The notes beneath the pieces are model-generated. The model was not told the DNA's origin. It ran no database searches and saw nothing but the letters and a program-made list of their open reading frames with translations. From Shewanella sp. SNU WT4 (lineage in GTDB: Bacteria; Pseudomonadota; Gammaproteobacteria; Enterobacterales; Shewanellaceae): a stretch of 64,000 bases of DNA. Of this stretch, positions 594 through 28,543 are shown piece after piece. How positions within the stretch are numbered: the stretch's first letter is position 1; each line of letters opens with the position of its first letter. The stretch is taken from contig NZ_CP041151.1 of the NCBI RefSeq assembly GCF_006494715.1, positions 1,612,001 through 1,676,000 on the forward strand, given 5' to 3'. Position numbers and translations under genes: made by a program.

Positions 594-1343
594 ATGAAAA
601 CTGAATGGGATTATTCGAGTTTGGCTAATGCATATTTAGAGCGCCCTGATTATTCACCCGCCGCGATTGATGCCATGCTAGCCGTTAGCCAAGTACAAAC
701 CAATGATAGCGTTTGTGATGTGGGGGCTGGTGTCGCACATTTGACACTTATGTTGGGAGCCAAGCAGTTACAAGTGACAGCCGTCGAACCTAATGATGCC
801 ATGCGCGCGAACGGTATCAAGCGCACTGAATCATTCAGTAACATTAAGTGGCATGAAGGCACTGGCGAAAATACCGGCCAAGCTTCTGCCCAGTTTTCCT
901 TGGTGACTTTTGGTAGCTCTTTTAACGTGTGTGACAGACCTAAGGCATTAGCTGAAACCGCCCGTTTATTGACGCCTGGTGGTTGGTTTGCCTGTATGTG
1001 GAATCATAGGGATTTAAAGGAGCCTATTCAGGCTGAAATAGAATCGATTATTACAGGCATTATTCCTTCATACGGCTATGGCACGCGCCGCGAAGATCAA
1101 AGCCAAATCATTGAAGCCAGTAACCTGTTCGGCGCCGTTGTGCACTTAGATGCCAAAGTCGTGCATCAACAATCCGTAGAGAAATGCATTGAAGCTTGGC
1201 GTTCCCATGCAACCTTAGAACGTCAAGCCGCGGCAAAATTCCCTGTGGTCATTGATGCCATTTCAAAATTCTTACTCGGGCTAAAGAAAGAATCTATCTC
1301 TATTCCCTATTCAACCAATATTTGGATGGCCCAACTTAAATAA
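594..1343 (+). CDS. SAM-dependent methyltransferase, phosphoramidate-cluster type
   Basis: This 249-residue class I methyltransferase has the SAM-binding motif I at residues 40-49 (VCDVGAGVAH), an acidic residue after strand 2 (VEPN) and a post-motif LLTPGGW segment near residue 125. A ribosome site AAAGGA precedes the ATG. The size and the N-terminal WDYSSLANAYLERPDY stretch recall the small methyltransferases (Cj1419/Cj1420 class) that sit beside the O-methyl phosphoramidate genes of Campylobacter jejuni. That resemblance is from memory. In context it would O-methylate a phosphoramidate intermediate, but methylation of a sugar is also possible. It lies between the two CDP-glycerophosphotransferase-like paralogues. 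Confidence 0.75.
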   Translation: MKTEWDYSSLANAYLERPDYSPAAIDAMLAVSQVQTNDSVCDVGAGVAHLTLMLGAKQLQVTAVEPNDAMRANGIKRTESFSNIKWHEGTGENTGQASAQFSLVTFGSSFNVCDRPKALAETARLLTPGGWFACMWNHRDLKEPIQAEIESIITGIIPSYGYGTRREDQSQIIEASNLFGAVVHLDAKVVHQQSVEKCIEAWRSHATLERQAAAKFPVVIDAISKFLLGLKKESISIPYSTNIWMAQLK

Positions 1344-1357
1344 TAGGTGATAGGCAA

Positions 1358-2956
1358 ATGAGTCCACTGACAAATATTACTAGCCTCGCCAATGAGGTTA
1401 ATTATGGTCTAAATACGCCTATCTATATTGTTGGTGGCGGCTCATTTGCGATTAAGCTTGCTAATGTCTTGATTGACAATCAGCTCGAATTTGAATTTAT
1501 TGACGAGTTTGCGTCATCGCTTTTACTTGAACGCAATGTCTATAAAGCCCACTCAATCCCAAGCCCTCTAGGGATATTTTTTATTGCGATTTCGATAGAT
1601 GAATATGCACTGGCGGCTATATCAAGGCTAGCGCAGCAAGGGGTAAAAAAAGAGCAATGCCTGCCTCTTAAATATGACTCAGATAGTATTATGCTGGGGC
1701 ATATGTTTACCCATAATCGCCATAAATTACTTGAACTACTCGCTCAGCCGTTATCAAGCGTCAAGGAACTTGAATCCTCTTTTTATATAGAACGTAACCA
1801 ATTTTTTGAAAGCTCAAGCGCCCAAAAAAAACATCTAATAGGCATTTGCTGTTTAGGACGAGGGGGAGGGTACTTAGGTCACTTGGGTCATATTCCAACT
1901 TGGTTAGCGGCGCATCATAATACTGTGACGTTAAGTGACTCAGAGCTGGATCTGCAGGGCACTATGCCAAGGTTTTTAATGGGCCAGAGTGCCATGAATG
2001 CTGAGACTTCACTCGATCTCGTCATTACCGCCCATGTCTTTCCTTGCAGCCCCAGGCAGACTAAAAAACTAAGTTTTTGTCATATGATTTATGACTTCTT
2101 GCTGTTTAATCAGCAAACCTACGAGCATTTACAGCAAGCGCAAACTCATTATGTATTTTTGCCTTCCAGCGCTAGCATGAAAATGCATCAAGACATTTGT
2201 CTACAGAATAAGTTTGAAAATAATATTGTGTTAATTCCTGGGGGCTACCCAAGGCACGATAATAATATGCGTCAATACCATGACGTTTGTGCGACTCAAT
2301 TGCCAGTAGATAGCATTTTATATGCACCCACCTTATCATCATTGCCAGCTGGTAATGAAACCTATGCTTGTTATTCCATTATTTCGGCCTTGCAGTTCGT
2401 ACCTGAAATTTTGGCCAGATTTTCTGATAAAAAATTAATATTTAGACCCCATCCTGAAGATTTAGCATTAGTTAAATATTCTTTGAGTCATCCGCGAGCT
2501 CAGGCCTTTGCCGAGCTATTGGCTTGGTGCGAGCAGCACCCACGATGTGAAATTGATGTGAGTCAGCAAAGTTATCTTGAAAGCTTTGCACGCTCAGCCT
2601 TAATTATCTCAGATACTTCATCTGTGGCTTTTTCATTCGCACTGTTGACGGGTAGGCCTGTTATTTTATTTTCTAGCGATCATCACTCTTTGATTCAAGA
2701 CTATAACCAATGTCAGTTTATTCTTGATAAACCTAAATTTGCTCACTTAGTAAATAATGAGAATGATTTATATCAAACTATCTCTGAGTTGCTACTTAGC
2801 ACTGATAAGTCGCTTGCACATACAGATTTCTGCAAAAGCAGCATATTTAATTTAGGCCATTCTGAAGATTATTTATATCAGCACTTTGATTATATTCTGC
2901 AAGATAAGCGCCACCCTGATTGGTGGTATTTACGCGATCATATTGAGGCTCATTAG
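1358..2956 (+). CDS. CDP-glycerophosphotransferase-like surface glycan protein
   Basis: The 532-residue protein has two visible parts. The N-terminal part, about residues 20-130, starts with a Rossmann-like IYIVGGGSF turn, similar to nucleotide- or sugar-binding domains of glycan enzymes. The C-terminal part, about 170-520, is GT-B-like, with RPHPED near residue 362 and a SDTSSVAFSFAL segment near residue 417, both typical of CDP-glycerol glycerophosphotransferases. It has no signal peptide or obvious membrane segment. It starts 14 bp after the methyltransferase and ends 2 bp before the APS-kinase-like gene, so the genes are probably translated together. It is a good candidate for the enzyme that moves a CDP-linked phosphoramidate to a sugar, but that is inferred from fold and neighbours only. 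Confidence 0.65.
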   Translation: MSPLTNITSLANEVNYGLNTPIYIVGGGSFAIKLANVLIDNQLEFEFIDEFASSLLLERNVYKAHSIPSPLGIFFIAISIDEYALAAISRLAQQGVKKEQCLPLKYDSDSIMLGHMFTHNRHKLLELLAQPLSSVKELESSFYIERNQFFESSSAQKKHLIGICCLGRGGGYLGHLGHIPTWLAAHHNTVTLSDSELDLQGTMPRFLMGQSAMNAETSLDLVITAHVFPCSPRQTKKLSFCHMIYDFLLFNQQTYEHLQQAQTHYVFLPSSASMKMHQDICLQNKFENNIVLIPGGYPRHDNNMRQYHDVCATQLPVDSILYAPTLSSLPAGNETYACYSIISALQFVPEILARFSDKKLIFRPHPEDLALVKYSLSHPRAQAFAELLAWCEQHPRCEIDVSQQSYLESFARSALIISDTSSVAFSFALLTGRPVILFSSDHHSLIQDYNQCQFILDKPKFAHLVNNENDLYQTISELLLSTDKSLAHTDFCKSSIFNLGHSEDYLYQHFDYILQDKRHPDWWYLRDHIEAH

Positions 2957-2958
2957 AC

Positions 2959-3471
2959 ATGGATAAGCAAAGGGTATTTTGGGTGACTGGATTGCCTGGC
3001 GCAGGTAAAACGACCTTAGCTAAGGCGTTAGTTAAGCGTCTTAAGCTTGAGCAGAGCAATATTGTTCATTTAGATGGTGATGATTTACGCGCCGTATTTA
3101 GTAACTATGACTTTAAGCGTGATGCTCGCCTCGAACTTGCGATGAAATACGCAAGAATGGCTGAATTACTGGCAAAACAGGGCTTAATTGTCGTGGTATC
3201 AACTGTCTCGTTATTTCATGCAGTACAAAACTGGAATCGTGAACACTTACCTGGTTATGTCGAAATTTTTGTAAACCCAGGTGATGATATTTTGCAGCAA
3301 CGCAATCAAAAGAATCTCTATGATCACAGCCAAAATGATAGCCAGCATATTGTTGGCCGCGGCATAGATGCTGAGTTTCCGCGGTCGCCCGATCTCGTGG
3401 TCGATGATATTGATATCGCTGAGTTAGCATCTGTGGTGGATGCCATTGTGCAGCGTTTTTTAAGTTATTAA
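2959..3471 (+). CDS. APS-kinase-like cytidine diphosphoramidate kinase candidate
   Basis: This 170-residue P-loop kinase belongs to the adenylylsulfate kinase (CysC) family. It has Walker A GLPGAGKT at residues 11-18, LDGDDLR near 38-44 and a late RGIDAEFPRSPDLVVD segment matching the family's C-terminal substrate region. No ATP sulfurylase genes are nearby, so a sulfate role is unlikely. The neighbours match the Campylobacter jejuni set Cj1415-Cj1418, in which the CysC homologue Cj1415 phosphorylates the ribose 3'-hydroxyl of cytidine diphosphoramidate. That activity is the preferred reading. The alternative is a stray APS kinase for sulfated glycans. The gene is only 2 bp from the upstream transferase-like gene. 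Confidence 0.75.
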   Translation: MDKQRVFWVTGLPGAGKTTLAKALVKRLKLEQSNIVHLDGDDLRAVFSNYDFKRDARLELAMKYARMAELLAKQGLIVVVSTVSLFHAVQNWNREHLPGYVEIFVNPGDDILQQRNQKNLYDHSQNDSQHIVGRGIDAEFPRSPDLVVDDIDIAELASVVDAIVQRFLSY

Positions 3472-3498
3472 TTTCATCTTTCTGCAAGGAATCGCATT

Positions 3499-5817
3499 GT
3501 GAAATCATGGACATTTTTGAGTAAAGGACGCACGTTAGCGCAGTTGCAGGGTAATTTGAACCATGGTGCAGTATTGCCATTAATCATCATTTCCTATCAG
3601 CAATTTGCTGCCAGTTCCACTGAGTATTTTAAGCAGCTATTTAGCATATTAGGTGCTGAAAAATTAGTGGTTCGCAGTAGTTACAGTCAAGAAGATGGTT
3701 ATCATGGCTCAATGGCAGGTATGTTTAGTAGCGTATTAAACATAGATAATCCCGAGCAGTTGCAGCAAGCTATAGTCGATGTTTTTGCCAGTTACCCTCA
3801 AGGGTTTGCGGCGAGTGAAGAAGTATTGATTCAGCCTATGGCCACAGGCATAGTGCATAGTGGCGTCATTTTTACAAGGGAGCCGACTACTGGTGCATCT
3901 TATGTCGTCATTGCCGATGATGCCTCAGGTAAAACTGATACTGTCACCTCTGGCGCTAAGGCTGAGGTGGATACTTATTTTATAAAATATGCTGTGCCCC
4001 CAAGTATTCCACTGTTAAAAACCCTGATGCCTTTGGTTGAAGAACTTATAACAGTATTTACTCATGACAGATTAGATATTGAATATGGCATTAATGATGC
4101 TGGCCAAGTGTGGTTATTTCAAATCAGGCCACTGTGCATGCCTGTCACTGTTGATGCCGATAATTCACTGGCACGGGTGGATAGTATTGCGAATAAATTA
4201 ACCATGTTAATGAAACCGCATCCATTCTTATTTGGCAGCACCACGGTATTTGGGGTTATGCCTGATTGGAATCCCGCTGAAATTATAGGTCTGTACCCTA
4301 AGCCTTTAGCCTTAAGTTTATATAAAGATTTAGTTACCGACAGCACTTGGGCTTATCAGCGCAATAATTACGGCTATAAAAATTTACGCAGTTTCCCACT
4401 GATGATAGATTTTTTAGGCTTGCCTTATATAGATGTTAGGGTGAGTTTTAATTCATTTTTACCGAAGGATTTAAGTCCCAATCTTGGGCATAAATTGGTT
4501 GATTACTATCTACAATGTTTAAAAGATAACCCTAAGGCCCATGACAGTGTTGAATTCGATATAGTGCTTTCTTGTTATACGCCATCGATTCAAGCAAAAA
4601 TGCAAACCCTGATTGCTGCTGGGTTTTCAGAGGCCGAGTGCGGTGAATTATCATCGCAATTACTCAGTTTAACTAATCGCATTATCGATCCTCGCACCGG
4701 TTTGTGGATCCAAGATTTACATCGCATTGAAAAGCTAAAATCTTTACATAAAACCACCATTGAAGGCTTTACTGATCCCGTGTCTAGAATTTATTGGCTG
4801 CTGGAAAATTGTAAGCGTTATGGCACCTTACCTTTTGCTGGCTTAGCGCGTGCGGCCTTTATTGCGGTGCAATTACTACAATCTTTGCGAGATGAAGCGA
4901 TTCTGACTCATGATGAATATGATAAGTTTCTAGCATCGCTCACTACCGTCAGCGGCACTATGCAGTCAGATTTGTCGCGTTTATCTAAACATCATTTTTT
5001 ACAAGAATATGGCCATTTACGGCCTGGCACTTATGATATTACCTCGCCGCGTTATGATATGGCATTTGATAAGTATTTTGTCTCGAGTCAACAATCTCAG
5101 CCGAGTGCCACCACAGAACACGGCTTAATGCTGGATGCGCGCACTTATGAAAAAATCAATACCATATTAATTGACCATGGGATTAATCATAGTGCTGACT
5201 CCTTATTGCACTTTATTAGGTGTGCAATTGAAGGTCGAGAATATGCCAAATTCGTCTTCACCCGCAGTTTAAGTGATGCCATTGAGGGCTTAGCATTGCT
5301 CGGGCAATCTCATGGGTTTAATCGCGACGACATGGCATTTACCAATGCTAATATTATTAATCAATTGATGACAGGCAGTCACTCGCAATATGAGGTGATT
5401 AAAAACAGCATTGAGCTTGGTAAGCAGCTTTATGCCAATGCCGAATTGGTGAAATTGCCACCGTTAATAGATTCTCCCCATAATGCCTATGAATTTATGA
5501 CGTCTAAATGCGAGCCAAGTTTTATTACCCGTCAAAAAGTCATTGCTCCTCAAGTAACCTGCCAAGATGGCGTGGATTTGAGTGGTAAAATAGTATTAAT
5601 TGCCAGCGCAGACCCTGGTTACGATTGGATATTTACTCATCAACTGAAAGGATTTGTCACTGCGTTTGGGGGATGTAATTCCCACATGGCGATTCGTGCC
5701 GCTGAGTTAAATATTCCGGCAGTTATTGGTGCTGGTGAATATAAATTTAACCTGTGGAAACAAGCTAATTTCCTTGAGCTAGATTGCGCTTCTAACAGCG
5801 TGAGAATGATTCAATGA
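3499..5817 (+). CDS. PEP-synthase-like L-glutamine kinase candidate
   Basis: This 772-residue protein starts at GTG, with AAGGA 9 bp upstream. The N-terminal third is a PPDK/PEP-synthase type ATP-grasp domain, with VVRSSYSQEDG near residue 53, VIFTREPTTGA and the closing FQIRPL near residue 215. The C-terminus is the swivelling phosphohistidine domain, with GGCNSHMAIRAAEL; the likely phosphorylated His is residue 729. The central 350 residues match no standard pyruvate domain that I can recognise. In Campylobacter jejuni the homologue in the same gene set, Cj1418, phosphorylates the amide of L-glutamine. The stop codon overlaps the next start as ATGA, which suggests coupled translation with the amidotransferase-like hydrolase. 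Confidence 0.8.
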   Translation: MKSWTFLSKGRTLAQLQGNLNHGAVLPLIIISYQQFAASSTEYFKQLFSILGAEKLVVRSSYSQEDGYHGSMAGMFSSVLNIDNPEQLQQAIVDVFASYPQGFAASEEVLIQPMATGIVHSGVIFTREPTTGASYVVIADDASGKTDTVTSGAKAEVDTYFIKYAVPPSIPLLKTLMPLVEELITVFTHDRLDIEYGINDAGQVWLFQIRPLCMPVTVDADNSLARVDSIANKLTMLMKPHPFLFGSTTVFGVMPDWNPAEIIGLYPKPLALSLYKDLVTDSTWAYQRNNYGYKNLRSFPLMIDFLGLPYIDVRVSFNSFLPKDLSPNLGHKLVDYYLQCLKDNPKAHDSVEFDIVLSCYTPSIQAKMQTLIAAGFSEAECGELSSQLLSLTNRIIDPRTGLWIQDLHRIEKLKSLHKTTIEGFTDPVSRIYWLLENCKRYGTLPFAGLARAAFIAVQLLQSLRDEAILTHDEYDKFLASLTTVSGTMQSDLSRLSKHHFLQEYGHLRPGTYDITSPRYDMAFDKYFVSSQQSQPSATTEHGLMLDARTYEKINTILIDHGINHSADSLLHFIRCAIEGREYAKFVFTRSLSDAIEGLALLGQSHGFNRDDMAFTNANIINQLMTGSHSQYEVIKNSIELGKQLYANAELVKLPPLIDSPHNAYEFMTSKCEPSFITRQKVIAPQVTCQDGVDLSGKIVLIASADPGYDWIFTHQLKGFVTAFGGCNSHMAIRAAELNIPAVIGAGEYKFNLWKQANFLELDCASNSVRMIQ

Positions 5818-6422
5818 TGCCAGTATTTGTGGTCATGCAGACAAATCTTCAGGCGTATGGGGAAGTGCATGACACCTTAGATAACAGATGGGCAGGATTT
5901 TTTATTCAAGCAGGAATTTTACCTATTTATTTGCCGAATAACCTAGATGTTGCCACCGCCATGCTAAGCAGTGATATTGCCCGCGGGGCCATATTTACTG
6001 GCGGCGGGGAATATAGTCTAGATGCTAGCGATACGCGCAGTCAGCTTGAACGCTTAGTGATGGATTGGAGTGTGCAACATGGCTATCCACTTATCGGTGT
6101 GTGCCGAGGGATGCAGGCTATGCTGCTTTACAAAGGCGCGCAATTACGTCCATGTCTAGGCCAAGTCTGTGCTCAGCAACAAATATTATTCTGCCAACAA
6201 GTTATCAAGGTAAATAGTTACCATCAATTTGAGTGCATCAATATCCCTGCTGAATTTGAGGTGATAGGGACAGGTGATAATGGCATGGTAAAAGCGGTAA
6301 AAGGTAAGCAATTATCTTGGTTGGCAATTATGTGGCACCCAGAAAGATTAATGCCGCAACGCAAGCAAGATCTGCAATTATTCAATCAATTTTTGACACA
6401 AGGTGCAGTATGCAAGGATTAA
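5814..6422 (+). CDS. Class I glutamine amidotransferase-like hydrolase (gamma-glutamyl-CDP-amidate hydrolase candidate)
   Basis: This is a 202-residue stand-alone class I glutamine amidotransferase domain. The nucleophile elbow GVCRG places the catalytic Cys at residue 97; WHPER supplies His175 and Glu177. The oxyanion-region segment FTGGGEYSL lies near residue 61. No synthetase domain is attached. In the Campylobacter jejuni phosphoramidate pathway, Cj1417 uses this fold to hydrolyse CDP-L-glutamine to glutamate and cytidine diphosphoramidate. Adjacent kinase and nucleotidyltransferase genes support that role. It overlaps the upstream gene by 4 bp and the downstream gene by 13 bp. A gamma-glutamyl-GABA hydrolase (PuuD-like) role is the main alternative and fits the context less well. 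Confidence 0.8.
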   Translation: MMPVFVVMQTNLQAYGEVHDTLDNRWAGFFIQAGILPIYLPNNLDVATAMLSSDIARGAIFTGGGEYSLDASDTRSQLERLVMDWSVQHGYPLIGVCRGMQAMLLYKGAQLRPCLGQVCAQQQILFCQQVIKVNSYHQFECINIPAEFEVIGTGDNGMVKAVKGKQLSWLAIMWHPERLMPQRKQDLQLFNQFLTQGAVCKD

Positions 6423-7153
6423 TACTCGCGGCAGGACGGGGCTCGCGCCTGGGGGAGCTTACATCATCACAACCTAAAGGATTAACCCCAGTATTAGGCG
6501 TTAGTATGCTTGAGCGCCAACTGCAGGCCATGAAAGCTGCGGGCTTACATGAGATTGCCGCCGCCTCTGGTTATAAGAGCGACATGATAGCGCGCTATAT
6601 TCCGCAGTTATTTCATAACCCGCACTGGCAAACATCGAATATGGTGACGTCCTTATTAGGTTGCCGTGAATTTTTACAAGCCGATACCAGCATAGTGAGT
6701 TATTCAGATATCATTTATCCTTCGCGGGTTATTGGTCAGTTAGCGCAAGCGGACGGGGATATAGTGGTGGCCTACGATCCTAATTGGTTGCAGCAATGGC
6801 AATTACGCTTTGATAATCCTCTTGATGATGCAGAAAGTTTTTCGCTCAACCCAGATGGCTTGTTACAGGATATTGGCCAAAAGGCGAGTACGATTGAGCA
6901 AGTCCAAGGGCAATTTATGGGCTTATTTAAGCTAACAGTGGCAGGTTTTGCATTAATTAGCGCTAGCCTTGCCAAGCTGACTACAACTGAAATTAATAAA
7001 CTCGATATGACGGCATTATTAAGTTTATTACTGAGCCAAGGCGTTAACATTCATGTGATGGCCATTGCTGATTTTTGGTTTGAAATCGACTCAGCCTATG
7101 ATTTAGCCCAATGTGAAGCTTTCATGCTAACTCATCAGGTGGAGTTAGCTTAG
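6410..7153 (+). CDS. Nucleotidyltransferase, CTP:phosphoglutamine cytidylyltransferase candidate
   Basis: This 247-residue NTP-transferase begins with the signature MQGLILAAGRGSRL followed by the lysine of QPKGL, the nucleotide-binding loop of sugar-phosphate and choline-phosphate nucleotidyltransferases. An in-frame start 93 bp upstream exists, but the ATG at 6410 is chosen because the family signature begins there and an AAGGTG ribosome site precedes it. SYSDIIYP near residue 100 is the metal-binding acidic strand. In the Campylobacter jejuni set, Cj1416 joins L-glutamine phosphate to CTP. It is the last gene of the operon; hairpins follow at once and the next gene converges from the other strand. 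Confidence 0.8.
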   Translation: MQGLILAAGRGSRLGELTSSQPKGLTPVLGVSMLERQLQAMKAAGLHEIAAASGYKSDMIARYIPQLFHNPHWQTSNMVTSLLGCREFLQADTSIVSYSDIIYPSRVIGQLAQADGDIVVAYDPNWLQQWQLRFDNPLDDAESFSLNPDGLLQDIGQKASTIEQVQGQFMGLFKLTVAGFALISASLAKLTTTEINKLDMTALLSLLLSQGVNIHVMAIADFWFEIDSAYDLAQCEAFMLTHQVELA

Positions 7154-7244: not shown

Positions 7245-8447
7245 CTAAATCAGATGAATATTACTGAGTTGCCACTGCGCCGCCAGATTGTGCATTTTCT
7301 CTCGGGTGGGGGCGTAAATGGGCGCTATGTATACCGGGTGTTTGAAATGCTGTAATTCAGCGCTGGATGAAATGACTTGATCATGAAAGGTGTGGCCTGC
7401 TAATTCATAATCAAATAGACAAATCTGTTGCTGCTTAATCGCCGCAATCATTTCTGGATAGCGCTTAAGCCATAAGTAAAAATCTCCCCCTATGCCCCAT
7501 ATACCTACTATCTGCTGTTGCGCTAACTGGTCTTTAACTTGGTTAATGAGCGCTTGTTGGCATGCTTGATATCCCATAAAGCGCTGCTCTACGGCAAGTC
7601 TGGCATTGTGATTCACGCGGTTAATTTGGTTTGTCTGCCCATGGTCACATTTTTTAAGCAGCAGCATTATTCGTGGAATATTACCTGTGGTGACTTGTTG
7701 CTGTTTAATTATCGTTAAACCTGCGCTAGCAGCCATTATTTGCAGCGAATCTTTGGTGTAGTAATGAATATGCTGGGCGTGCACTAAATTGGTATAAGCG
7801 AGCGCAGCAATATAAGCATCCGGGCTACAATCTGGCACTTCAATAAATATATGGCCCTCGGGAGCTAAGCAGTCTCTAAGGTGCCGTAAATAAGCCACTG
7901 GATTGATTATGTGTTCTAACACATGGGTACTAATGGCAAGGCTTATTGGCTGGTGGTCAAAATGAGGTTTAATTTCTTCTAGCTGATTTAAGTCGGCACG
8001 GATATGAGCAATGCTGCTTGACTTAATATGATGGTGGAAATCAACACTGGCTAGTTGCAGCTGCTTATCTGCAAAGTGCTTTTCTAAATAAAGTAAGGTA
8101 GCGCCAGCCCCCGCACCAAAATCGACAATGTGGGCGCACTTGCTAAGATATGGCGTAAAGAATTCCGCCATATCTTCATAGGGGGATTTAGCGCCTTGGG
8201 GCGTATCACACCACATATCAGGCTCTAGCGTGCTGGAAAAATAGAGCATCTTGAAAATGCCATCGCTATAAGCAATGACTATTTGCACATGGCTGCAATG
8301 CTGGCATTCGCCAATAGGGAACTCCATGGCTTGGCGCGTGAGTTCGGTGGCACTTTTGTCCCACACTCCGGAGAATAAAGTATCGATTATTTGCCAGTCG
8401 TGATGGCCACATAATTGGCACGGCGTGGTCGCCAGCAAACTATTCAT
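7245..8447 (-). CDS. Three-domain sugar-type methyltransferase (Zn-binding, SAM, C-terminal)
   Basis: This 400-residue protein has the layout of sugar C-methyltransferases of the NovU/TylC3 kind. The N-terminal zinc-binding segment has CxxC pairs at residues 10/13 and near 48/51. The central SAM domain has VDFGAGAG near residue 109 and AISTHVLEHIINP. The C-terminal Rossmann-like domain begins with GIWGIGGDFY near residue 320. It is a tandem paralogue of the next gene upstream, sharing the HVLEHxxNPVxxLR, VPDxS, NLVxxQHIHYxxxDSLQ and GIG(G/A)DFYL segments. It is the last gene of the long nonulosonic acid operon and lies 3 bp from its paralogue. The acceptor is unknown; C- or O-methylation of the glycan or its acyl group is inferred. 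Confidence 0.75.
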   Translation of the reverse strand: MNSLLATTPCQLCGHHDWQIIDTLFSGVWDKSATELTRQAMEFPIGECQHCSHVQIVIAYSDGIFKMLYFSSTLEPDMWCDTPQGAKSPYEDMAEFFTPYLSKCAHIVDFGAGAGATLLYLEKHFADKQLQLASVDFHHHIKSSSIAHIRADLNQLEEIKPHFDHQPISLAISTHVLEHIINPVAYLRHLRDCLAPEGHIFIEVPDCSPDAYIAALAYTNLVHAQHIHYYTKDSLQIMAASAGLTIIKQQQVTTGNIPRIMLLLKKCDHGQTNQINRVNHNARLAVEQRFMGYQACQQALINQVKDQLAQQQIVGIWGIGGDFYLWLKRYPEMIAAIKQQQICLFDYELAGHTFHDQVISSSAELQHFKHPVYIAPIYAPTREKMHNLAAQWQLSNIHLI

Positions 8448-8450
8448 TGA

Positions 8451-9689
8451 TTAGATTCCTTTGAAAAATGGGTCGACGACTTGTTGCCACTCTTGGCTGA
8501 TGGCTCGCATTTTTATTCGGGTTTCAGCAAGTAGCGGGCACAGAAATGTTGGGTGAATGGCGTTAGCTAACTTACTGCTGCAAGCTATGGTTTGCCCATG
8601 ATAGTGCTTACCTGCTAATGAGTAATCAAACAAGGCAAGTTGGCGGCTAGCAATGAGTTCAAGCAAATCCGTATGTTCACTGATTAATAGATAAAAATCC
8701 GCGCCTATGCCCCATAATCCTGCCTTGCCATGACGGGTTATGGCCGCGCGCACTTTGGCAGCCAATTGTGCCCGCAATTGCTGGCATTGGTGCTGATAAT
8801 GACTAACAGCATTCACTGTGCTAACTGTATGGCTTTCAGGTTGAGTAGAGTCATGATTCAAGGCGATGTCGTTGGCTGCTTGCAGTAATACTTGCAGCCT
8901 TGGAATATAACCTGTGATCACTCTTGCCTGTTTAATGAGGCGCAGGCCAGCTTGCTTGGCGGCAAATTGCAGGGAGTCCAAACTAAAGTAATGAATATGC
9001 TGCAAGTTAACTAAATTACTCATGCCTATGGATGGCAGCGGATGCGGCGCTGAAAAATCCGGCACTTCTATAAAAATTGCGCCTTTGGGGCTAAGTTGCT
9101 GCTTGATACCGCGCAAAAACTCCACAGGATTAATCACATGCTCTAACACGTGCGACGCCATGGCTAAATCTATGCCTTGTGGCCAGGCATCAGAAGTTAG
9201 CTGCTCAAGGTTATTTAAATCAAAGGCAAGGTAGCGAATATTGGTTTGCGAAAATCTATCGTTAAAATCTATGCCCACTAACTCACTGTCTGGCAGTGCA
9301 GCTTGCGTCGCCGCTAACAATTTGCCTTCACCGCAGCCAAAATCAACCACGGTTTTAGGCGATTGCTGAGTTAAACCTAGTAGGTTATTTATGTCATCTA
9401 AGCCTGATAAGGCAAAGTTAATCATCTCTTGATAGGGGGCATGGCTTGCTATCAGGGATTCATGCCACATCACAGCTTCTTGGGCGGAATGAAAATAGAG
9501 CTTGGCAAACAAGTCGTTAGTATATTGAACGCTCACTTGCACATGACCACAATGCTGGCATTGAGATAAAGGGTATAGCGAGTGTTGGCGCTTGAGCTCA
9601 AGCTCAGTGGTATCCCATAACCCAAAGGCTATGTGGGAAAATGTCTGCCAGCGCTCTTTACTACACAGTTGACATGAAGCTGTGGCCAT
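8451..9689 (-). CDS. Three-domain sugar-type methyltransferase, paralogue
   Basis: This 412-residue protein has the same three parts as its neighbour at 7245-8447. N-terminal CxxC pairs (CQLC near residue 6 and CQHC near 43) suggest a zinc site. The SAM domain shows VVDFGCGEGKLL near residue 114 and MASHVLEHVINPVEFLR. The C-terminal GLWGIGADFYLL segment matches the C-terminal domain of sugar C-methyltransferases. The two proteins look like a local duplication followed by divergence, so two different positions may be methylated. It begins 8 bp after the SDR gene in the same operon. No acceptor can be read from the sequence. Confidence 0.75.
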   Translation of the reverse strand: MATASCQLCSKERWQTFSHIAFGLWDTTELELKRQHSLYPLSQCQHCGHVQVSVQYTNDLFAKLYFHSAQEAVMWHESLIASHAPYQEMINFALSGLDDINNLLGLTQQSPKTVVDFGCGEGKLLAATQAALPDSELVGIDFNDRFSQTNIRYLAFDLNNLEQLTSDAWPQGIDLAMASHVLEHVINPVEFLRGIKQQLSPKGAIFIEVPDFSAPHPLPSIGMSNLVNLQHIHYFSLDSLQFAAKQAGLRLIKQARVITGYIPRLQVLLQAANDIALNHDSTQPESHTVSTVNAVSHYQHQCQQLRAQLAAKVRAAITRHGKAGLWGIGADFYLLISEHTDLLELIASRQLALFDYSLAGKHYHGQTIACSSKLANAIHPTFLCPLLAETRIKMRAISQEWQQVVDPFFKGI

Positions 9690-9697
9690 ATATTCCC

Positions 9698-10426
9698 TTA
9701 ATTAGTAATGCCGCCATCTATGGTCAAGGTTTGGCCGGTAATAAAGGCCGCGCCATCAGACAATAAAAAGCTTATGGCAGGCGTAATATCTTGCACTGTG
9801 CCAAGGCGTTGCAGCGGCGTGCGCCGCACTATTTGCTCGCGCTTGCTATCCGATAAGAGGGATGACATTTCAGTATCTAAATAGCCAGGGGCAATGGAAT
9901 TAACCGTGATCTTGCGCCGCCCATTTTCTCGTGCCAGCGCCCGCGTTAGGCCATCAAGGCCAGCTTTTGAGGCTGAATAAGCCGCAAGGCCGGTGTAACC
10001 TCGGCTACCGATAATCGAGCTGATATTAATTATCCTGCCGCCACTGTTTTGCCGCAAAAATACCCGCAGCGCTTCTCTGGCAAAATAGATGGCGCCATTT
10101 AAGTTAACTTGCAGTAAGGCGTCGGTGTCGATATTGGGAAAAGTAGCCAGTACGCCTTCTTTGGCAATTCCGGCATTATTAATTAAGGCCCACAAGGGCG
10201 CATCGCTTGCCCACTGACAAGCATTATTCACAAAAGCTGTGGTTTGCTCGGCATTGCCAACGTTACATTCAAACCATTTAAAATCTGGGTGTTCTAGCTC
10301 TAAACTGCTTATGGCTGCGGTTTTGGTGCGGCTGCAACAAGAGACTTTATAACCTTGGTAGAGCAAATGGGTGACTATGCCAAGCCCTAGGCCGCGGCTG
10401 CCACCAGTGACAATAATATGTTTCAT
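9698..10426 (-). CDS. Short-chain dehydrogenase/reductase, FabG-like
   Basis: This 242-residue classical SDR has the NADP(H)-binding TGGSRGLGLG at residues 7-16, NNAG near 86, the catalytic Ser in NISSIIG and YSASK with Tyr and Lys intact. The C-terminus ends in the usual FITGQTLTIDGG. It is closest in pattern to 3-oxoacyl-ACP reductases. Its ATG overlaps the upstream ligase stop by 4 bp. The operon also has two acyl carrier proteins and a KAS III, so reduction of a short 3-oxoacyl-ACP is the likely job. Reduction of a sugar intermediate cannot be excluded. Confidence 0.8.
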   Translation of the reverse strand: MKHIIVTGGSRGLGLGIVTHLLYQGYKVSCCSRTKTAAISSLELEHPDFKWFECNVGNAEQTTAFVNNACQWASDAPLWALINNAGIAKEGVLATFPNIDTDALLQVNLNGAIYFAREALRVFLRQNSGGRIINISSIIGSRGYTGLAAYSASKAGLDGLTRALARENGRRKITVNSIAPGYLDTEMSSLLSDSKREQIVRRTPLQRLGTVQDITPAISFLLSDGAAFITGQTLTIDGGITN

Positions 10427-11838
10427 TGCAAAAACCTCTGTTTTTTGCCTGCGCTAGATAAGCTGATGTTATCGCTAAAGGTGATGATTCTCGGTCTTGC
10501 GGCAGGTTCAAGTTGTAAGCAGAGCTCGTTAAGCGCCTTAGCGGCAAGGGTTTGGTTAAATGCACATAATTCAACACACACTAATGCGCCTGTGATGGGG
10601 TTTGCTTTGGCGTAGACTCTGGCATCGCTAATCTCAGGCAGCTGCATGATTTGGCGCTCGAGCGCTTCAAGATTGACTTTGACGCCGCCGACATTCACAA
10701 GATTATCTATGCGGCCAGTAAACAAAACTCTGTCTTGGCTGATGTCGATACAGTCACCTGTATCTATCTCAACTTGGCCCTTAGTTAATCTTAAGGTTGA
10801 GCCTGCGATTAATTGCCAGCCATGAGTGGCGCCATTGCTGTTATCACAAGTAGCACTGGCATTAGCCGCGTTTTCCAGCCAAGCGCGCGGAAAACCTGCG
10901 CGCCTATCCTTTACGGTAAAAACCACTCCGGCTTCAGTCGTGGCGTAAATATGGCGAATTTGTGCGTTGGGATAGACGTTATTGATAGTATCTAAGGTGC
11001 GCTGATCGGCAATTTCGCCGCCTAAGGTAATGATAGTTAATGGCGGCAGGTATGTTTGCCAGCTTAATAGTAGGGCGCGCAGCATAGATGGGGTGGCGCT
11101 AATCGCATTGATGTTATGTACATGCGCGAGGTGCGCTTTCGCTTGCAGGCTAGCATCAAGGGCGGCAACTAAGGTGTCTTCACTCACTATGGCTTGCAAA
11201 ATTACTTGTAAGCCCGCGTAACTCATAGGGTGATAACACAGTAGCCAAGTATTTGCTGGCTTTGGTGCTATTGGCTTAGCTTGTATTAACTTAGCGTGTA
11301 TTAAGTTAGCCGCGCTGTGGCTTTGACTGTCATTTTGGGGATGAGGGCGCTCGCTAGGTAGCAATTTTGCTAAGGCGTGAAACACTAACTTGGGCTGGCC
11401 TGTGGTGCCGGACGTCAGCAGACCAATAGCAAAATGCTTAGGCACAGAATGAATATCGAGTGCTTGCTGAGTTCGATTTAAAATCAGCGGAATATTGTTT
11501 GATTCAGCGTAGTGCATCGCTTGGATCATCAGCGCCACTATTGGTGTTGTGCTTGCAGTTGAGCTTACTGGTGTTGAACATCTTGGTTTTGCTAATGAGC
11601 CAACGCCAACGGCAATGCCACTAGGCGCCAGCGCTATATAGGTTGTGGTTATATCCACATGGCATAGACAGTGCTCGTCAGCACCAAGATCATCAGCACT
11701 AACGCTATGCAGTTGCAAATTATCAGGATTGAAATCATGGGCATAAAAACGCTGGCCATTTTCAATCAAGGCAAATTGACTGTCGCTACTAAGCAGGCTT
11801 GCCATGCTTCTTTGTATGCTGGTCGTGATAGCGAACAT
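10423..11838 (-). CDS. AMP-forming acyl-CoA/acyl-ACP ligase
   Basis: This 471-residue member of the ANL adenylating superfamily is a little short for the family. It has the P-loop LLTSGTTGQPK near residues 138-148, TLGGEIADQ near 275, YATTEAG near 295, and DTGDCI with GRIDNLVNVGGVKV near 385-400. The C-terminal SAGKKQ supplies the catalytic lysine. With two carrier proteins next to it, it probably loads an acid onto an acyl carrier protein or CoA. A low-complexity 5-residue repeat (NLIHA KLIQA KPIAP, DNA 11264-11308) sits near residue 180-190. The start codon shares a base with the upstream ACP stop. Confidence 0.75.
   Translation of the reverse strand: MFAITTSIQRSMASLLSSDSQFALIENGQRFYAHDFNPDNLQLHSVSADDLGADEHCLCHVDITTTYIALAPSGIAVGVGSLAKPRCSTPVSSTASTTPIVALMIQAMHYAESNNIPLILNRTQQALDIHSVPKHFAIGLLTSGTTGQPKLVFHALAKLLPSERPHPQNDSQSHSAANLIHAKLIQAKPIAPKPANTWLLCYHPMSYAGLQVILQAIVSEDTLVAALDASLQAKAHLAHVHNINAISATPSMLRALLLSWQTYLPPLTIITLGGEIADQRTLDTINNVYPNAQIRHIYATTEAGVVFTVKDRRAGFPRAWLENAANASATCDNSNGATHGWQLIAGSTLRLTKGQVEIDTGDCIDISQDRVLFTGRIDNLVNVGGVKVNLEALERQIMQLPEISDARVYAKANPITGALVCVELCAFNQTLAAKALNELCLQLEPAARPRIITFSDNISLSSAGKKQRFLQ
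11264..11308. repeat. Three 15-bp tandem repeats inside the ligase gene
   Basis: Three adjacent 15-mers (11264, 11279, 11294) of the pattern G(C/G)(T/G)(T/G)(G/C)TATT(A/G)(A/G)(C/G)TTA are in frame and encode three similar 5-residue units. The last two copies differ at two bases. Confidence 0.7.
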
Positions 11839-12083
11839 TAGGCAGCAGCGCCTTGATAGAGCGCAATTAAGTCAGATAGGCTATGAAACGACTTAAAACC
11901 GTCTCTAAATGGGTCAACGCCGGTGGCGAGTTCGACACTCACAATTAAGGTGGCAAGATCCAGTGAATCCATAGGTAAATCGGCTAAGAATGCCAAATGG
12001 AGTTGCAGTTCCGGGCAGGTTTCGCCTTTGCTTTCAATTATCTGCTTAGTTTCATTCAAGATGATGGCTTCAAAGTTACTCAT
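11838..12083 (-). CDS. Acyl carrier protein
   Basis: This 81-residue acidic protein has the phosphopantetheine attachment motif in LPMDSLDLATL; the modified Ser is residue 40. Predicted helices on both sides match the four-helix ACP fold. It lies in the operon between a GNAT acetyltransferase (4-bp ATGA overlap) and an AMP-forming ligase (1-bp overlap), which suggests the ligase loads it or the GNAT unloads it. It is one of two ACPs in the operon. It is not housekeeping AcpP, which has a DSLDTVEL motif and sits with the fab genes. Confidence 0.85.
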   Translation of the reverse strand: MSNFEAIILNETKQIIESKGETCPELQLHLAFLADLPMDSLDLATLIVSVELATGVDPFRDGFKSFHSLSDLIALYQGAAA

Positions 12084-12646
12084 GCATTATCCCAATCATT
12101 AAATGCGGCGGCTATTTTATCTAGATTAAAGTGCTGTTTTTGCGTCAGCCAATCTTGTTTTAGTTGCTCAAACACATGGACATCCAAAAACTGACCATTT
12201 TTAACTATGTGCTGCTTAAGATGCCCCACTAATCGCGTTTTATGTAAAGTTTGGAGCTTTACCACTTTGTCGTTAGCATCAAGCACATAGTTGACAATTT
12301 TATTCAGCTTTAGCTGATGAAAAACATAGTTACAGATATAAGTGTGCATAGTCGCGCCGTATTTGAGCCTAGGCTCGCGCTCATAAATGTAAGAGCCAGT
12401 ACTACAGCGCTGATGAGTAACATCAATATCGCTAAAGCATAAGAAACCAATAGGAATATCATCATCTTGGATCATATAACCGCGATAATCCTTGCGCCCG
12501 GCTAGCGATGCAATCCAAGCTTGCTGCTTAGCTAACGATGGCTGCTCAAGGTCGGTAAACATGTGCTTACTGATCTCAGGTGACGTGCGCCATTTAAGCA
12601 GTAGCGCGGCATCGTCAATATCCACTCGTTTAAAATGTAAGGGCAT
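12080..12646 (-). CDS. pseH: GNAT N-acetyltransferase, PseH-like
   Basis: This 188-residue GNAT protein begins with the PseH/RimJ-like pattern LLLKWRTSPEISKHMF at residues 15-30 and later shows GFLCFSDID and the acetyl-CoA-loop region around YIYEREPRLKYGATMHTYI. PseH acetylates the 4-amino group of the UDP-amino-sugar precursor of pseudaminic acid. PseG and PseI genes in the same operon support that role. Because two ACP genes and a ligase are directly adjacent, the donor may be a special acyl-ACP or acyl-CoA rather than acetyl-CoA; that is inference. The gene overlaps the downstream ACP by 4 bp and follows an SDR by 10 bp. Confidence 0.65.
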   Translation of the reverse strand: MPLHFKRVDIDDAALLLKWRTSPEISKHMFTDLEQPSLAKQQAWIASLAGRKDYRGYMIQDDDIPIGFLCFSDIDVTHQRCSTGSYIYEREPRLKYGATMHTYICNYVFHQLKLNKIVNYVLDANDKVVKLQTLHKTRLVGHLKQHIVKNGQFLDVHVFEQLKQDWLTQKQHFNLDKIAAAFNDWDNA

Positions 12647-12656
12647 GTTTGGCCTC

Positions 12657-13418
12657 TTAGTTGGCTAAATAGCCACCTTCAACGGGTAACGTCACGGCAT
12701 TGATCCATTTGGCGGCGTCACTCAGTAAAAACGCCACGGCATTGGCCACGTCTTCGGGTTGACCTAATCCCATCGGGTGCTGATTGACCATATGTTGAAA
12801 CTGCGCCTCGGTCATACTGGCCTTAGTGCGCTCGGCCATGTCGGTGGCCACCAGTGCGGGGGCAACGCAATTAACGCGAATATTGTCTCGCAGTAATTCC
12901 ATCGATAGGCCGCGAGTTAATGACATTAATCCTGCTTTACTCGCGCCATACACTGTATTGCCGGTTTGACCTATGAGGCCAGCAATGGAGGCCACAAAGA
13001 CGATGGCGCCTTGTTTAGTGCGATCGCGTTTGAGCCTAAAGCCTTGAGTGATGGCCATGGCACTGGCTAAATTGACGTGCATAGTGTCATCAAAAAACGC
13101 TTGATCAAACAGACGTATGGGCTTAGTGACTTGCACGCCAGCACAATGCACAAAGCCATCGAGATAACCATGTTCAGCGGTTAAGGTCTTAATCCAGTCA
13201 CATAATTTATCGGTATCTGTCATATCAAAGGGGGCGCACACATGGCCGCCGCCCACTAAGCTTTCGGCAGTATGTTGCAAAGTTTGGATGTTGCGCCCAT
13301 TGAGTATGACCTTAGCGCCAAGCTCGGCTAATAACACGGCGCACGCCCGGCCTATGCCAGAGGATGCGCCAGTAACCAGCACGCGCTTACCGCTAAAGTC
13401 CATCGGCTGAATGCTCAT
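12657..13418 (-). CDS. Short-chain dehydrogenase/reductase, FabG-like
   Basis: This 253-residue classical SDR has the cofactor motif TGASSGIGRA at residues 16-25, the catalytic Ser in VASIAG near 143, and YGASK with intact Tyr and Lys near 156-160. It ends in LPVEGGYLAN, the usual C-terminal end. It sits between an ACP gene (21 bp upstream) and the PseH-like acyltransferase (10 bp downstream), so a 3-oxoacyl-ACP substrate is the most economical guess. It is one of three SDRs in this operon. Specific substrate is not readable from sequence. Confidence 0.8.
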   Translation of the reverse strand: MSIQPMDFSGKRVLVTGASSGIGRACAVLLAELGAKVILNGRNIQTLQHTAESLVGGGHVCAPFDMTDTDKLCDWIKTLTAEHGYLDGFVHCAGVQVTKPIRLFDQAFFDDTMHVNLASAMAITQGFRLKRDRTKQGAIVFVASIAGLIGQTGNTVYGASKAGLMSLTRGLSMELLRDNIRVNCVAPALVATDMAERTKASMTEAQFQHMVNQHPMGLGQPEDVANAVAFLLSDAAKWINAVTLPVEGGYLAN

Positions 13419-13439
13419 AGTATTGCTACCTGCGCTCCA

Positions 13440-13682
13440 TTAAGCGGCCAAATGTTCATCCACTAGCGCCAGTAAATCTGCCACTGTGGTAATACTCTCT
13501 AATTTATCGCCTTGAATAATGATGTCAAAATGCTCATCGGCCATGGCAATCACGCTTAAAAAGGCCAAGGAATCCCATTGTTCGATATCCATTAACACTT
13601 CATTGCCTTTAAGCTCGCCTGGATTAAGCTCGAGGATTTCTTCTAGATTGTTTAAGAATTCTTGTTTGTTCATAGGGTTCAC
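13440..13682 (-). CDS. Acyl carrier protein
   Basis: This 80-residue acidic protein has the phosphopantetheine motif IEQWDSLAFLSVI, with the modified Ser at residue 38. The WDSL form is common in stand-alone carrier proteins of secondary or glycan pathways, whereas fatty acid synthesis uses DSLD. It differs strongly from the second ACP at 11838-12083, so each may serve a different partner. A 97-bp gap separates it from the cytidylyltransferase gene upstream, the second largest gap in the operon, so a secondary promoter may lie there. Confidence 0.85.
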   Translation of the reverse strand: MNPMNKQEFLNNLEEILELNPGELKGNEVLMDIEQWDSLAFLSVIAMADEHFDIIIQGDKLESITTVADLLALVDEHLAA

Positions 13683-13779
13683 CTTTCGTTAGTGTGGGTC
13701 AGGGGTTTAGCGTCTAAGTTGTTCGTGTTTACCTAGCTGCCGATAAGACTCTATCGACCAAGGCGCGTTATTGTTTAAC

Positions 13780-14580
13780 CTAATGCGCCGCGCGCTGCAC
13801 CACTTGGGCATTGAGTTTGGCAAGCTCAGGCTTATCTATCAGCACTTGGCAAATTTCAGCTGGGGTGGCGCTGAGCCAATTTGGTCCTAACGCCTTAATC
13901 ACTTGCTCTACCAAATGAAAATCGGCAATCTCATCCACGCACAGCCTAAATTCTTGCCATTGGCGGTTACCTGTTTCAATGCTGGCGATAAGCGCATTGG
14001 GCTCAGAGTATAAAAATAAGGTCACATGCTCGCGCTCGGCGCAGCTTGTAGCCTCTTTATAAGCGCGGGTTAAACTCGCCATGCTAAACACTTCGACATC
14101 AAAGCCGCGGGGAAAGTAATTGAGGCTGACATGAGTGTATTGATGAGGCGAGCCTTGCTGATGCTTGATAACCGCTTCATCAATTAAACTTGGGCAAATC
14201 AGCGGGCAGTCAGCGGTTAAGCGAATAATAATGTCGCTTGGCTGGGCGTTGGCTTGTAATGCTGCCTCATAAAACCGACTTAATACATTGTGCTCATCAC
14301 CGCAAAAATAGGCCTGCTGCTGGGCTTGGCAATAGTTCACAATCGCCTTGTCAATGTCTGCCGTGCTGGTGGCAATAATATGGCAATCAACCGTGCGCGC
14401 CTCTTTAACCCTGCGAATATGGTATTCAAGCATAGGTAGCGCCTGTGTTAGCTCAGACACTGGCGCTTGCTTTGATTCAGTGAGCATTTGTTCAGCGAGC
14501 ATATGTTCAATGGGCATAAGCACCTTGCCCGGCAAACGACTTGAACCCATGCGCGCTTGTGTGATGCAGATAACTCGCAT
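13780..14580 (-). CDS. pseF: SpsF-type CMP-nonulosonate cytidylyltransferase
   Basis: This 266-residue protein begins with ITQARMGSSRLPGKVLMPI, the nucleotide-binding loop of the SpsF/acylneuraminate cytidylyltransferase family, and has IIRLTADCPLI near residue 122 with the metal-binding aspartate. It should activate the nonulosonic acid with CTP, and it starts directly after the PseI stop with no gap. Residues 25-48 are an extra, repeat-like stretch where family members usually have only about three residues between the MPI and PMLEYH segments. A housekeeping KdsB role is unlikely because that family has a different loop. The pseF name is by role and position. Confidence 0.7.
   Translation of the reverse strand: MRVICITQARMGSSRLPGKVLMPIEHMLAEQMLTESKQAPVSELTQALPMLEYHIRRVKEARTVDCHIIATSTADIDKAIVNYCQAQQQAYFCGDEHNVLSRFYEAALQANAQPSDIIIRLTADCPLICPSLIDEAVIKHQQGSPHQYTHVSLNYFPRGFDVEVFSMASLTRAYKEATSCAEREHVTLFLYSEPNALIASIETGNRQWQEFRLCVDEIADFHLVEQVIKALGPNWLSATPAEICQVLIDKPELAKLNAQVVQRAAH
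14482..14511. repeat. Two 15-bp tandem repeats inside the cytidylyltransferase gene
   Basis: Two adjacent 15-mers beginning GAGCAT(T/A)TGTTCA lie in frame in the region coding for the extra residues 25-48 of the cytidylyltransferase. A shorter partial copy, GGGCATAAG, follows. Confidence 0.6.
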
Positions 14581-15654
14581 TTATGCCTTCCTTATGAGAG
14601 CTATGGATAAATGCTCTTCACGCAGCGGCTCACCAAAGGCGATATCTTGGCTGGCTATTTGCCCAAGAACTTGCGGCAAATAGCGGGTGTGCAGGCCGTG
14701 GGCGGGTCTTACTGAACGGACATTATCTGGGGTAAACACTTGGCCTTTGCTAATCGTTTGGCTGATGTACAGTGAGCGCCTAAAATCGCGGCCGCCGATT
14801 TCACTCGGCTTAATGTCATAGCCTGCTTGGCCCAACGCCTTAAAGGCTTTATTGGTGTCACGGGTTAATTCAATGAAAGCTGTCGGCTCTAATGAAAAGG
14901 CGGCATCCACTGAACCATCACTCTTATCTAAGGTGAAATGCTTTTCAATGAGGCTGGCGCCAAGGGCAACCGCAGTAATAGCCACAGTGCTTTCAATGGT
15001 GTGATCGCTTAAACCTATAGGAAAGTCAAAACGTTGGCACAAATCAGTGATGGTGCGTAAATTACAATCTGCAATTGGGGTCGGGTAACCGCTAATGCAA
15101 TGCAATAAGGCTAATTGGGTGCCGCCAGCGTCTGCCACGGCATTCACTGCCTCCTCAATTTCGGCCAAGGTCGCAAGGCCGGTTGACATTATGATGGGCT
15201 TACCGGTTTTGGCCGCCGCAGTAATTAAACCAATATCATTGATTTCAAAAGAGGCAATTTTATAGGCTGGGCAATCAAGAGATTCAAGCAAGGCAATGGC
15301 ACTGGCATCAAATGGCGATGAAAACAGGGTGATATTATGCATTTTGGCGCGCTGAAATAAGGGCTCGTGCCACTCCCAGGGGGTGTGCGCCTCTTGATAT
15401 AAATCATACAGGGTGCGCCCCGCCCAGAGCCCGCCAGTTAACTGAAAATCCGCGCTATCGTGATTGAGGGTAATAGTATCAGCGCTATAGGTTTGAATCT
15501 TGATGGCATCAACCCCCGTTGCGGCGGCGGCATCTATCATGGCCAATGCTTGGGATAAGCTACCTTTGTGATTACCAGAAAGCTCAGCAATTACATAAGG
15601 AGGGCATTGGCGGCCGATAGTGCGGCCATTGATAGTGATAGTTTGGCTAAACAT
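14581..15654 (-). CDS. pseI: Pseudaminic acid synthase-like NeuB family enzyme
   Basis: This 357-residue protein has a NeuB TIM barrel followed by a C-terminal antifreeze-like SAF domain (about residues 285-350, GQVFTPDNVRSVRP). The N-terminal VIAELSGNHKGSL is the form seen in pseudaminate synthases; sialate synthases more often have AEAGxNHNG. IKIQTY, MSTGLA, LHCISGYP and GLSDHT mark the PEP and metal site. It condenses a 6-deoxy amino sugar with phosphoenolpyruvate to form the nine-carbon acid. It overlaps the Rieske gene by 8 bp and abuts the cytidylyltransferase gene. Legionaminate synthase is the main alternative. Confidence 0.85.
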   Translation of the reverse strand: MFSQTITINGRTIGRQCPPYVIAELSGNHKGSLSQALAMIDAAAATGVDAIKIQTYSADTITLNHDSADFQLTGGLWAGRTLYDLYQEAHTPWEWHEPLFQRAKMHNITLFSSPFDASAIALLESLDCPAYKIASFEINDIGLITAAAKTGKPIIMSTGLATLAEIEEAVNAVADAGGTQLALLHCISGYPTPIADCNLRTITDLCQRFDFPIGLSDHTIESTVAITAVALGASLIEKHFTLDKSDGSVDAAFSLEPTAFIELTRDTNKAFKALGQAGYDIKPSEIGGRDFRRSLYISQTISKGQVFTPDNVRSVRPAHGLHTRYLPQVLGQIASQDIAFGEPLREEHLSIALIRKA

Positions 15655-18651: not shown

Positions 18652-18722
18652 GATGATGGCGGAACTCCTGTTCACCGCTGCATTAATGTTTACTGCACAT
18701 CCATATTGGCAGCGGAACCCTT

Positions 18723-18785
18723 ACTTACTGCAGTTCTAATACTTACTGCAGTTCTAATGCTTACTGCAGTTCTAATGCTTACTGT
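18723..18785. repeat. 18-bp tandem repeat, three copies plus a partial copy
   Basis: Units (A/G)CTTACTGCAGTTCTAAT start at 18723, 18741 and 18759, and a fourth decays after nine bases. The repeat fills most of the 119-bp gap between the KAS III gene and the SDR gene of the nonulosonic acid operon. Confidence 0.9.
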
Positions 18786-18794
18786 TGCGTTAGG

Positions 18795-25356: not shown

Positions 25357-25361
25357 GGGAG

Positions 25362-26873: not shown

Positions 26874-26883
26874 GCTGCCTCCT

Positions 26884-28542: not shown

Positions 28543-28543
28543 A

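Follow-up and report, generated by a model that had tools for sequence, protein, structure and literature searches.

We analyzed a window of 64,000 nucleotides from the genome of Shewanella sp. SNU WT4 (the whole stretch from 1,612,001 to 1,676,000 of contig NZ_CP041151.1) and identified an operon-like run of genes at positions 594-7153 that is predicted to make and attach phosphoramidate. Judging from gene families and gene surroundings, we consider it reasonably probable that the run supplies O-methyl phosphoramidate to a pseudaminic-acid flagellin glycan. The parts of this reading differ in strength: predicted synthesis of the donor by the cassette is well supported, methylation by the methyltransferase of the run is likely, and flagellin is the probable target. 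The genes of the run are as follows (aa, amino acids):

594-1343, + strand: S-adenosylmethionine methyltransferase (MT), 249 aa; core cassette member and candidate phosphoramidate O-methyltransferase
1358-2956, + strand: TagF-like transferase, predicted phosphoramidate transferase, 532 aa; PF04464; sits between MT and the CysC-like kinase
2959-3471, + strand: CysC-like kinase, 170 aa; predicted cytidine diphosphoramidate kinase of the Cj1415 type; above the NF004041 cut-off and below that of apsK
3499-5817, + strand: L-glutamine kinase (GK) of the Cj1418 type, 772 aa, GTG start; NF004508, 892 bits
5814-6422, + strand: class-I amidotransferase-like hydrolase of the Cj1417 type, 202 aa; triad C97/H175/E177
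6410-7153, + strand: nucleotidyltransferase (NTase), predicted CTP:phosphoglutamine cytidylyltransferase of the Cj1416 type, 247 aa, ATG at 6410; PF12804

All genes of the run are on a single strand, none more than 27 bp from the next, and the open reading frame (ORF) at 1358-2956 is spaced 14 bp from MT and 2 bp from the CysC-like kinase. An earlier note on this DNA had described MT, the CysC-like kinase, GK, the hydrolase, and the NTase, and the ORF list, Pfam, and NCBIfam agree with its families and coordinates, as does recomputation with its two overlaps, GK over hydrolase by 4 bp and hydrolase over NTase by 13 bp. Its statement that the 5 genes are all adjacent has to be corrected, since the 532-aa ORF separates MT from the CysC-like kinase. 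The note includes neither this ORF nor the related, broken gene (1-558) in which the window begins. The gene order of Campylobacter jejuni that it had invoked applies to GK-hydrolase-NTase, which is collinear with Cj1418-1417-1416, but not to the kinase and MT, which are placed elsewhere. No tRNA was found within the window, and promoter and terminator scans gave nothing above chance.

Family assignment and active-site residues of the donor-making enzymes

Family models and active-site residues side with a phosphoramidate pathway, as the earlier note had proposed, over adenylyl-sulfate (APS) kinase and phosphoenolpyruvate (PEP) synthase. GK passes NF004508 (PRK05849), a model of which we take Cj1418 to be a member, with 892.3 bits (cut-off, 501), and it scores far under the cut-off of the listed PEP-synthase models, outside the PEP synthase and pyruvate phosphate dikinase (PPDK) families. 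The Pfam scan of GK found only PPDK_N and the PEP-utilizers swivel domain, with no PEP-binding barrel. The swivel-domain residue H729, to which a phosphohistidine role may be given by analogy with the PEP-utilizer domain, is conserved in every one of the 80 best GK loci of our genome scan (from many phyla; all locus counts refer to these).

The CysC-like kinase scores 171.5 against a cut-off of 127 for NF004041 (PRK05541), which is itself named adenylyl-sulfate kinase and which we assume to be linked to Cj1415, and 91.5 against a cut-off of 138.7 for apsK (TIGR00455); a separate true CysC (251.7 bits) is encoded elsewhere in the genome. We aligned the window kinase with kinases from 13 of 73 loci and with the true CysC, which has FISPTRSERD, whereas 13 of the 14 cassette kinases have T-[IV]-S-[LM]-F followed by [WY]NR, the exception being the L020 kinase with TISPF and WLR. 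The Cys-His-Glu triad of the hydrolase (C97/H175/E177) is kept in 78 of 78 loci, and the G-G-R...P-K residues of the NTase are retained in all or nearly all of 76 loci (the NTase search query began at 6407, 1 codon ahead of the ATG). The solved structure closest to the NTase is 6pd1, named nucleotidyl transferase/aminotransferase and presumably the phosphonate cytidylyltransferase PntC. Sulfate assimilation and PEP metabolism were considered as roles and ruled out by the Pfam and NCBIfam scores and the separate true CysC. Two points weigh against the assignment: the top NCBIfam model of the hydrolase, NF045546 (gamma-glutamyl-CDP-amidate hydrolase), is matched with 79.7 bits against a curated cut-off of 250, which leaves the protein outside that model, and the likeness to C. 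jejuni is drawn through family models, not through direct alignment with Cj1415-Cj1418.

PMC11800397 describes Cj1415-Cj1418 as the enzymes that convert glutamine, ATP, and CTP into CDP-phosphoramidate 3'-phosphate, and we infer equal reactions here, with the methyl step by MT, attachment by the transferase, and flagellin as the target. GK would use ATP to phosphorylate glutamine on its amide nitrogen, the NTase would add CMP from CTP, the amidotransferase-like hydrolase would remove glutamate to leave CDP-phosphoramidate, and the CysC-like kinase would place a phosphate on the ribose 3'-OH of that product. MT would methylate a P-oxygen of an intermediate, and the TagF-like transferase would transfer the phosphoramidate, methylated or not, from its CDP carrier onto a hydroxyl group of a sugar. 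The acceptor is most likely the pseudaminic-acid-based flagellin glycan of the enclosing Maf-PseB-PseC ... PseH-PseF-PseI-PseG island.

Conservation of the cassette across genomes

GK relatives occur in many phyla, with at least 7036 proteins among 7998 scored and at least 543 genome places, contrary to a 2022 review that calls glutamine kinase C. jejuni-specific (PMC9561416) and to the earlier view of the pathway as mainly one of Campylobacter. No Campylobacter locus was present among the best 80 GK loci, and a plasmid tblastn search returned 15 records with no Campylobacter among them. Beside GK in the 80 loci, the NTase was identified 78 times, the hydrolase 77 times, MT 64 times, and a separate CysC 61 times, which exceeds chance; CysC was fused to GK in 12 further loci and not found in 7. 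The order CysC-MT-GK-hydrolase-NTase was present in 33 of the 80.

In the fused loci (L032, L045, L047, L051, L055, L056, L057, L061, L062, L074, L082, and L093), the CysC-like kinase forms the N-terminus of GK within 1 ORF. Their hosts are 9 Acidobacteria-type metagenome-assembled genomes (MAGs; by title), 2 Gammaproteobacteria MAGs, and 1 Verrucomicrobia MAG.

A TagF-like candidate for the attaching step

The transferase encoded at 1358-2956 likely performs the attaching step, as its family and its predicted structure indicate. It passes PF04464 (Glyphos_transf) with 39.5 bits (cut-off, 22.1), and the top fold match of the predicted structure (predicted local distance difference test, pLDDT, 89.7) is TagF, with 12-15% identity in the TagF matches. 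The sequence search gave no solved-structure match, TagF surfacing in the fold search only. The motif R-P-H-P-x-D (363-368) and residues D419/S421 are invariant across 31 aligned transferase rows. A CDP-linked phosphoramidate donor would suit a TagF-like, CDP-glycerol-using enzyme; TagF (CDP-glycerol glycerophosphotransferase) is the best fold match and shares the PF04464 family and, by prediction, a CDP donor with the Shewanella transferase, but the latter is predicted to move phosphoramidate instead of glycerol phosphate.

We identified at least 37 transferase relatives among 7993 scored, with Shewanella, Agarivorans, Pseudoalteromonas, and 1 distant Aliidiomarina as the named hosts of the relatives listed. 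For 9 of the 37, the longest contig is equal in length to that of one of the 120 listed GK relatives, which suggests that transferase and GK sit together there.

The pseudaminic-acid island and the probable acceptor

Upstream of the cassette, we identified Maf (PF01973, 126 bits, over the cut-off), PseB (544.6; cut-off, 407.75), and PseC (527.1; cut-off, 423.5). The genes that follow the cassette are listed below:

7245-9689, - strand: two methyltransferases of 400 and 412 aa, Methyltransf_23, in the same island
9698-11838, - strand: short-chain dehydrogenase/reductase (SDR) and AMP-binding acyl ligase, by Pfam; relatives in equal order in G050
12080-12646, - strand: PseH-like N-acetyltransferase; TIGR03585, 91.4 bits, just under the cut-off of 93.1
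13780-14580, - strand: cytidylyltransferase, PseF-like by place; PF02348, with no NCBIfam model above cut-off
14581-15654, - strand: PseI pseudaminic acid synthase; TIGR03586, 492.9 (cut-off, 340.25)
15647-16855, - strand: Rieske oxygenase; PF00355, PF00848
16746-17924, - strand: PseG hydrolase; TIGR03590, 168.8 (cut-off, 153.55)
18795-21058, divergent: two beta-ketoacyl-ACP synthase III (KAS III)-like enzymes; PF08541/PF08545; G050 has an equal pair

The cassette is located between Maf-PseB-PseC and the PseH-like, PseF-like, PseI, and PseG genes, and PseI is the sole NeuB-family match in the genome. Genome G050 has equal order over nearly the entire island; the G094 cassette likewise has Maf, NeuB, and PseG linked to it, arranged differently. 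Taking the pseudaminic-acid (Pse) pathway together with Maf as the mark of a flagellin glycosylation island, we found both here, with PseH just under its cut-off and PseF assigned by PF02348 and place. A plain capsule locus was excluded by these Pse/Maf genes. The earlier note had proposed another, unspecified surface glycan; the glycan context holds, but "unspecified" does not, since the surroundings are of the pseudaminic-acid/Maf, flagellin type. The phosphoramidate operon could be a species-specific part of flagellin modification in this strain.

Within the same island, the KAS III-like pair, acyl ligase, SDRs, Rieske oxygenase, and 2 Methyltransf_23 enzymes (7245-21058) suggest that the nonulosonic acid bears an acyl or alkyl group of an unusual kind. 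Farther along the window lie a two-ORF transposase-like pair (24307-25862; 349 and 166 aa; judged by look) and an amino-acid/acyl-CoA degradation operon unrelated to the cassette (26214-34408; acyl-CoA dehydrogenase, carboxylase, and CoA transferase, by look).

We compared the positions of GK and Flagellin_N matches on one contig in 64 genomes, of which 61 represent loci among the 80 (19 of the 80 loci standing outside the test) and 3 (G088, G094, and G140) came from the search among relatives. Counting the flagellin matches listed, 22 of the 64 genomes have GK and a flagellin-domain gene no more than 25 kb apart, against 1.85 expected, 15 have them within 15 kb (1.24 expected), and 6 within 5 kb (0.55 expected); on the same matches, the 25-kb linkage was present in 20 of the 61 locus-representing genomes. 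Linked genomes include Pseudomonas, Catenovulum, Rheinheimera, Chitinibacter, Chitiniphilus, Andreprevotia, Zoogloea, and Ensifer, and 5 are titled Eubacterium, Acetatifactor, Lachnospiraceae, or Anaerotruncus. The cassette of L024 stands directly after FlgI-FlgJ-FlgK-FlgL, the usual site of Pseudomonas flagellin glycosylation islands. That the gene set also occurs close to flagellin genes outside Shewanella suggests phosphoramidate as a decoration of some flagella. A broader proposal, which we hold tentatively as a real possibility, is that O-methyl phosphoramidate is widespread on flagella (Alteromonadales, Pseudomonas, Chitinibacter and kin, Clostridia) by way of a portable five-gene cassette, with MT as the missing phosphoramidate O-methyltransferase and a TagF-like family of its own moving phosphoramidate to the pseudaminic-acid glycan in Shewanella and kin. 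As a separate observation, the GK locus of the related genome G140 (C2:116865-119225) has no recognisable MT and has Maf genes on both sides, with flagellin-domain genes within about 17 kb.

Several observations speak against flagellin as the acceptor. The strain's own flagellin genes are not adjacent to the cassette but about 1.57 Mb from it, and a second Maf of the genome is nearer to them than the island Maf, so the flagellin reading in this strain rests on Maf and the Pse genes. Flagellin_N also matches FlgL, 5 linked genomes are titled Pseudomonas with a similar Gammaproteobacteria MAG as a sixth, and hand-picking accounts for 16 of the first 20 genomes, several of them chosen for Pse-like neighbours; the P-value of the linkage therefore overstates independence. 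In 42 of the 64 genomes, GK is more than 25 kb from a flagellin-domain gene, again by the flagellin matches listed, which argues that the cassette serves other glycans too.

An acceptor in the lipopolysaccharide (LPS) core or capsule of this strain, with the pathway otherwise as proposed, is in our view unlikely. It would accord with the distant flagellins, the 42 unlinked genomes, the capsule decoration of C. jejuni, and the phosphoramide reported as a minor variant in Shewanella MR-4 LPS (PMC3210612 and PMC3907429). The cassette, however, lies between Maf/PseB/PseC and the sole NeuB-family locus, with G050 arranged alike; flagellin-domain genes are found within 25 kb of GK in G094, G140, and 20 others; and PMC3765264 associates the Shewanella orthologues of PseB/C and Maf with flagellins. 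We retain flagellin as the probable target.

The proposed methyl step

The conservation of MT marks it as a specific candidate for the methylating enzyme. Its median identity is 56% (63 loci) against 45% for GK (80), 41% for CysC (73), 41% for the NTase (77), and 31% for the hydrolase (78), and in 41 of the 64 MT-bearing loci it is 40-70% identical, with GK there at about 44-47%. This identity and the linkage of MT to the cassette would suit a fixed substrate made by the cassette. Among 145 relatives, 4 of the 5 genomes with GK also have MT, compared with 1 of the remaining 140, by a weak match (Fisher 1.4e-6). Counting the other way, MT is only about 30-39% identical, below GK, in 23 of the 64 MT-bearing loci, and it was not found in 16 of the 80.

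When the MT profile was compared with structures, YcgJ (1xxl) came first and HvrF (9e72) second, at 19% identity. HvrF was considered as proof of P-O methylation and dropped because YcgJ ranks above it and PMC7858074 likens it to trans-aconitate methyltransferase.

An unmethylated phosphoramidate as the product, with MT methylating a sugar, appears doubtful to us. Phosphoramide without methyl is known in Xanthomonas and Shewanella LPS, O-methyl groups are present on the S. oneidensis flagellin glycan, knockouts of Cj1419/Cj1420 gave no visible change according to PMC11800397, which gives these 2 genes no function, and the 16 loci in which MT was not found point the same way. PMC3546167 states that relevant knockout observations did not exist. 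Against this, MT accompanies the cassette across phyla, its most frequent place being between CysC and GK, and its identity in the 41 loci stands on the side of a methylated phosphoramidate, so that methylation by MT is still the likely reading.

Island integrity and remaining alternatives

One of the 2 TagF-like transferases of the strain is broken, which detracts from the overall reading. The following features were annotated at this site:

L096:18214-19927, just upstream of the window: insertion sequence (IS) element; transposase at L096:18229-19842 with DUF4277 and DDE domains
1-558, + strand: C-terminal remnant of the first TagF-like transferase gene; front part at L096:17262-18227, upstream of the window

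The IS element has 12-bp terminal inverted repeats at L096:18214 and 19916 and splits the first transferase gene, an intact copy of which was identified at the equivalent place in G050. Such an interruption could mean that the island is decaying and that this strain has lost the decoration or makes less of it, but we judge this improbable: the reading frames of the other cassette genes, that of the second transferase among them, are open, and conserved residues are intact in GK, the hydrolase, the NTase, the CysC-like kinase, and the transferase. A conventional set of APS kinase, PEP synthase, and sugar nucleotidyltransferase serving some other role, as automatic names of relatives such as PEP-utilizing enzyme might imply, is highly improbable in view of the family cut-offs, the separate true CysC, the conserved cassette, and the kinase motif that differs from that of true CysC.

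Novelty and comparison with known systems

Among the open-licence papers listed in our literature searches, we found no report tying glutamine kinase or phosphoramidate genes to flagellin glycosylation; in a paper on a Clostridium botulinum flagellar island, "phosphoramidate" occurs in a reference title only. New as predictions are the location within a flagellin island, the family of TagF-like transferases, and the place of MT among the conserved genes of the cassette, while the cassette itself is not rare and phosphoramide in Shewanella LPS is already in print. The O-methyl phosphoramidate of C. jejuni serves phages as a receptor and influences resistance to serum (PMC3907429 and PMC9561416). 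If the reading holds for the flagella of Shewanella, Pseudomonas, and gut Clostridia, phosphoramidate would be a general surface tag that could be met by flagellum-binding phages and receptors.

The flagellin modification of S. oneidensis MR-1 (sfmABCDE, PseB/C, and Maf SO_3259) resembles the predicted system in having Maf, a nonulosonic-acid glycan, and a species-specific modification set; it differs in an outer 264-Da moiety said to lack nitrogen, and the available part of PMC3765264 describes no GK cassette. Phosphoramidate has been described on the capsule of Campylobacter and, in unmethylated form, in the LPS of Xanthomonas and Shewanella, the latter by Vinogradov 2008 as cited in passages of PMC3907429 and PMC3210612. 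The MR-4 LPS phosphoramide shares with our prediction the genus and a P-N decoration of a surface glycan, but it is a minor LPS variant whose genes are not named in those passages.

Another close comparison is the O-methyl phosphoramidate (MeOPN) pathway of C. jejuni. All 4 biosynthetic enzyme kinds and a transferase are found in one Shewanella locus, together with a methyltransferase and a second transferase gene, and the GK-hydrolase-NTase order is equal. The 2 TagF-like genes recall the C. jejuni transferases Cj1421/Cj1422, a likeness in number. The 2 systems differ in host, in the position of the kinase and MT, in the TagF-like transferases predicted here, and in setting, the Shewanella cassette lying in a pseudaminic-acid/Maf island and that of C. 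jejuni in a capsule locus.

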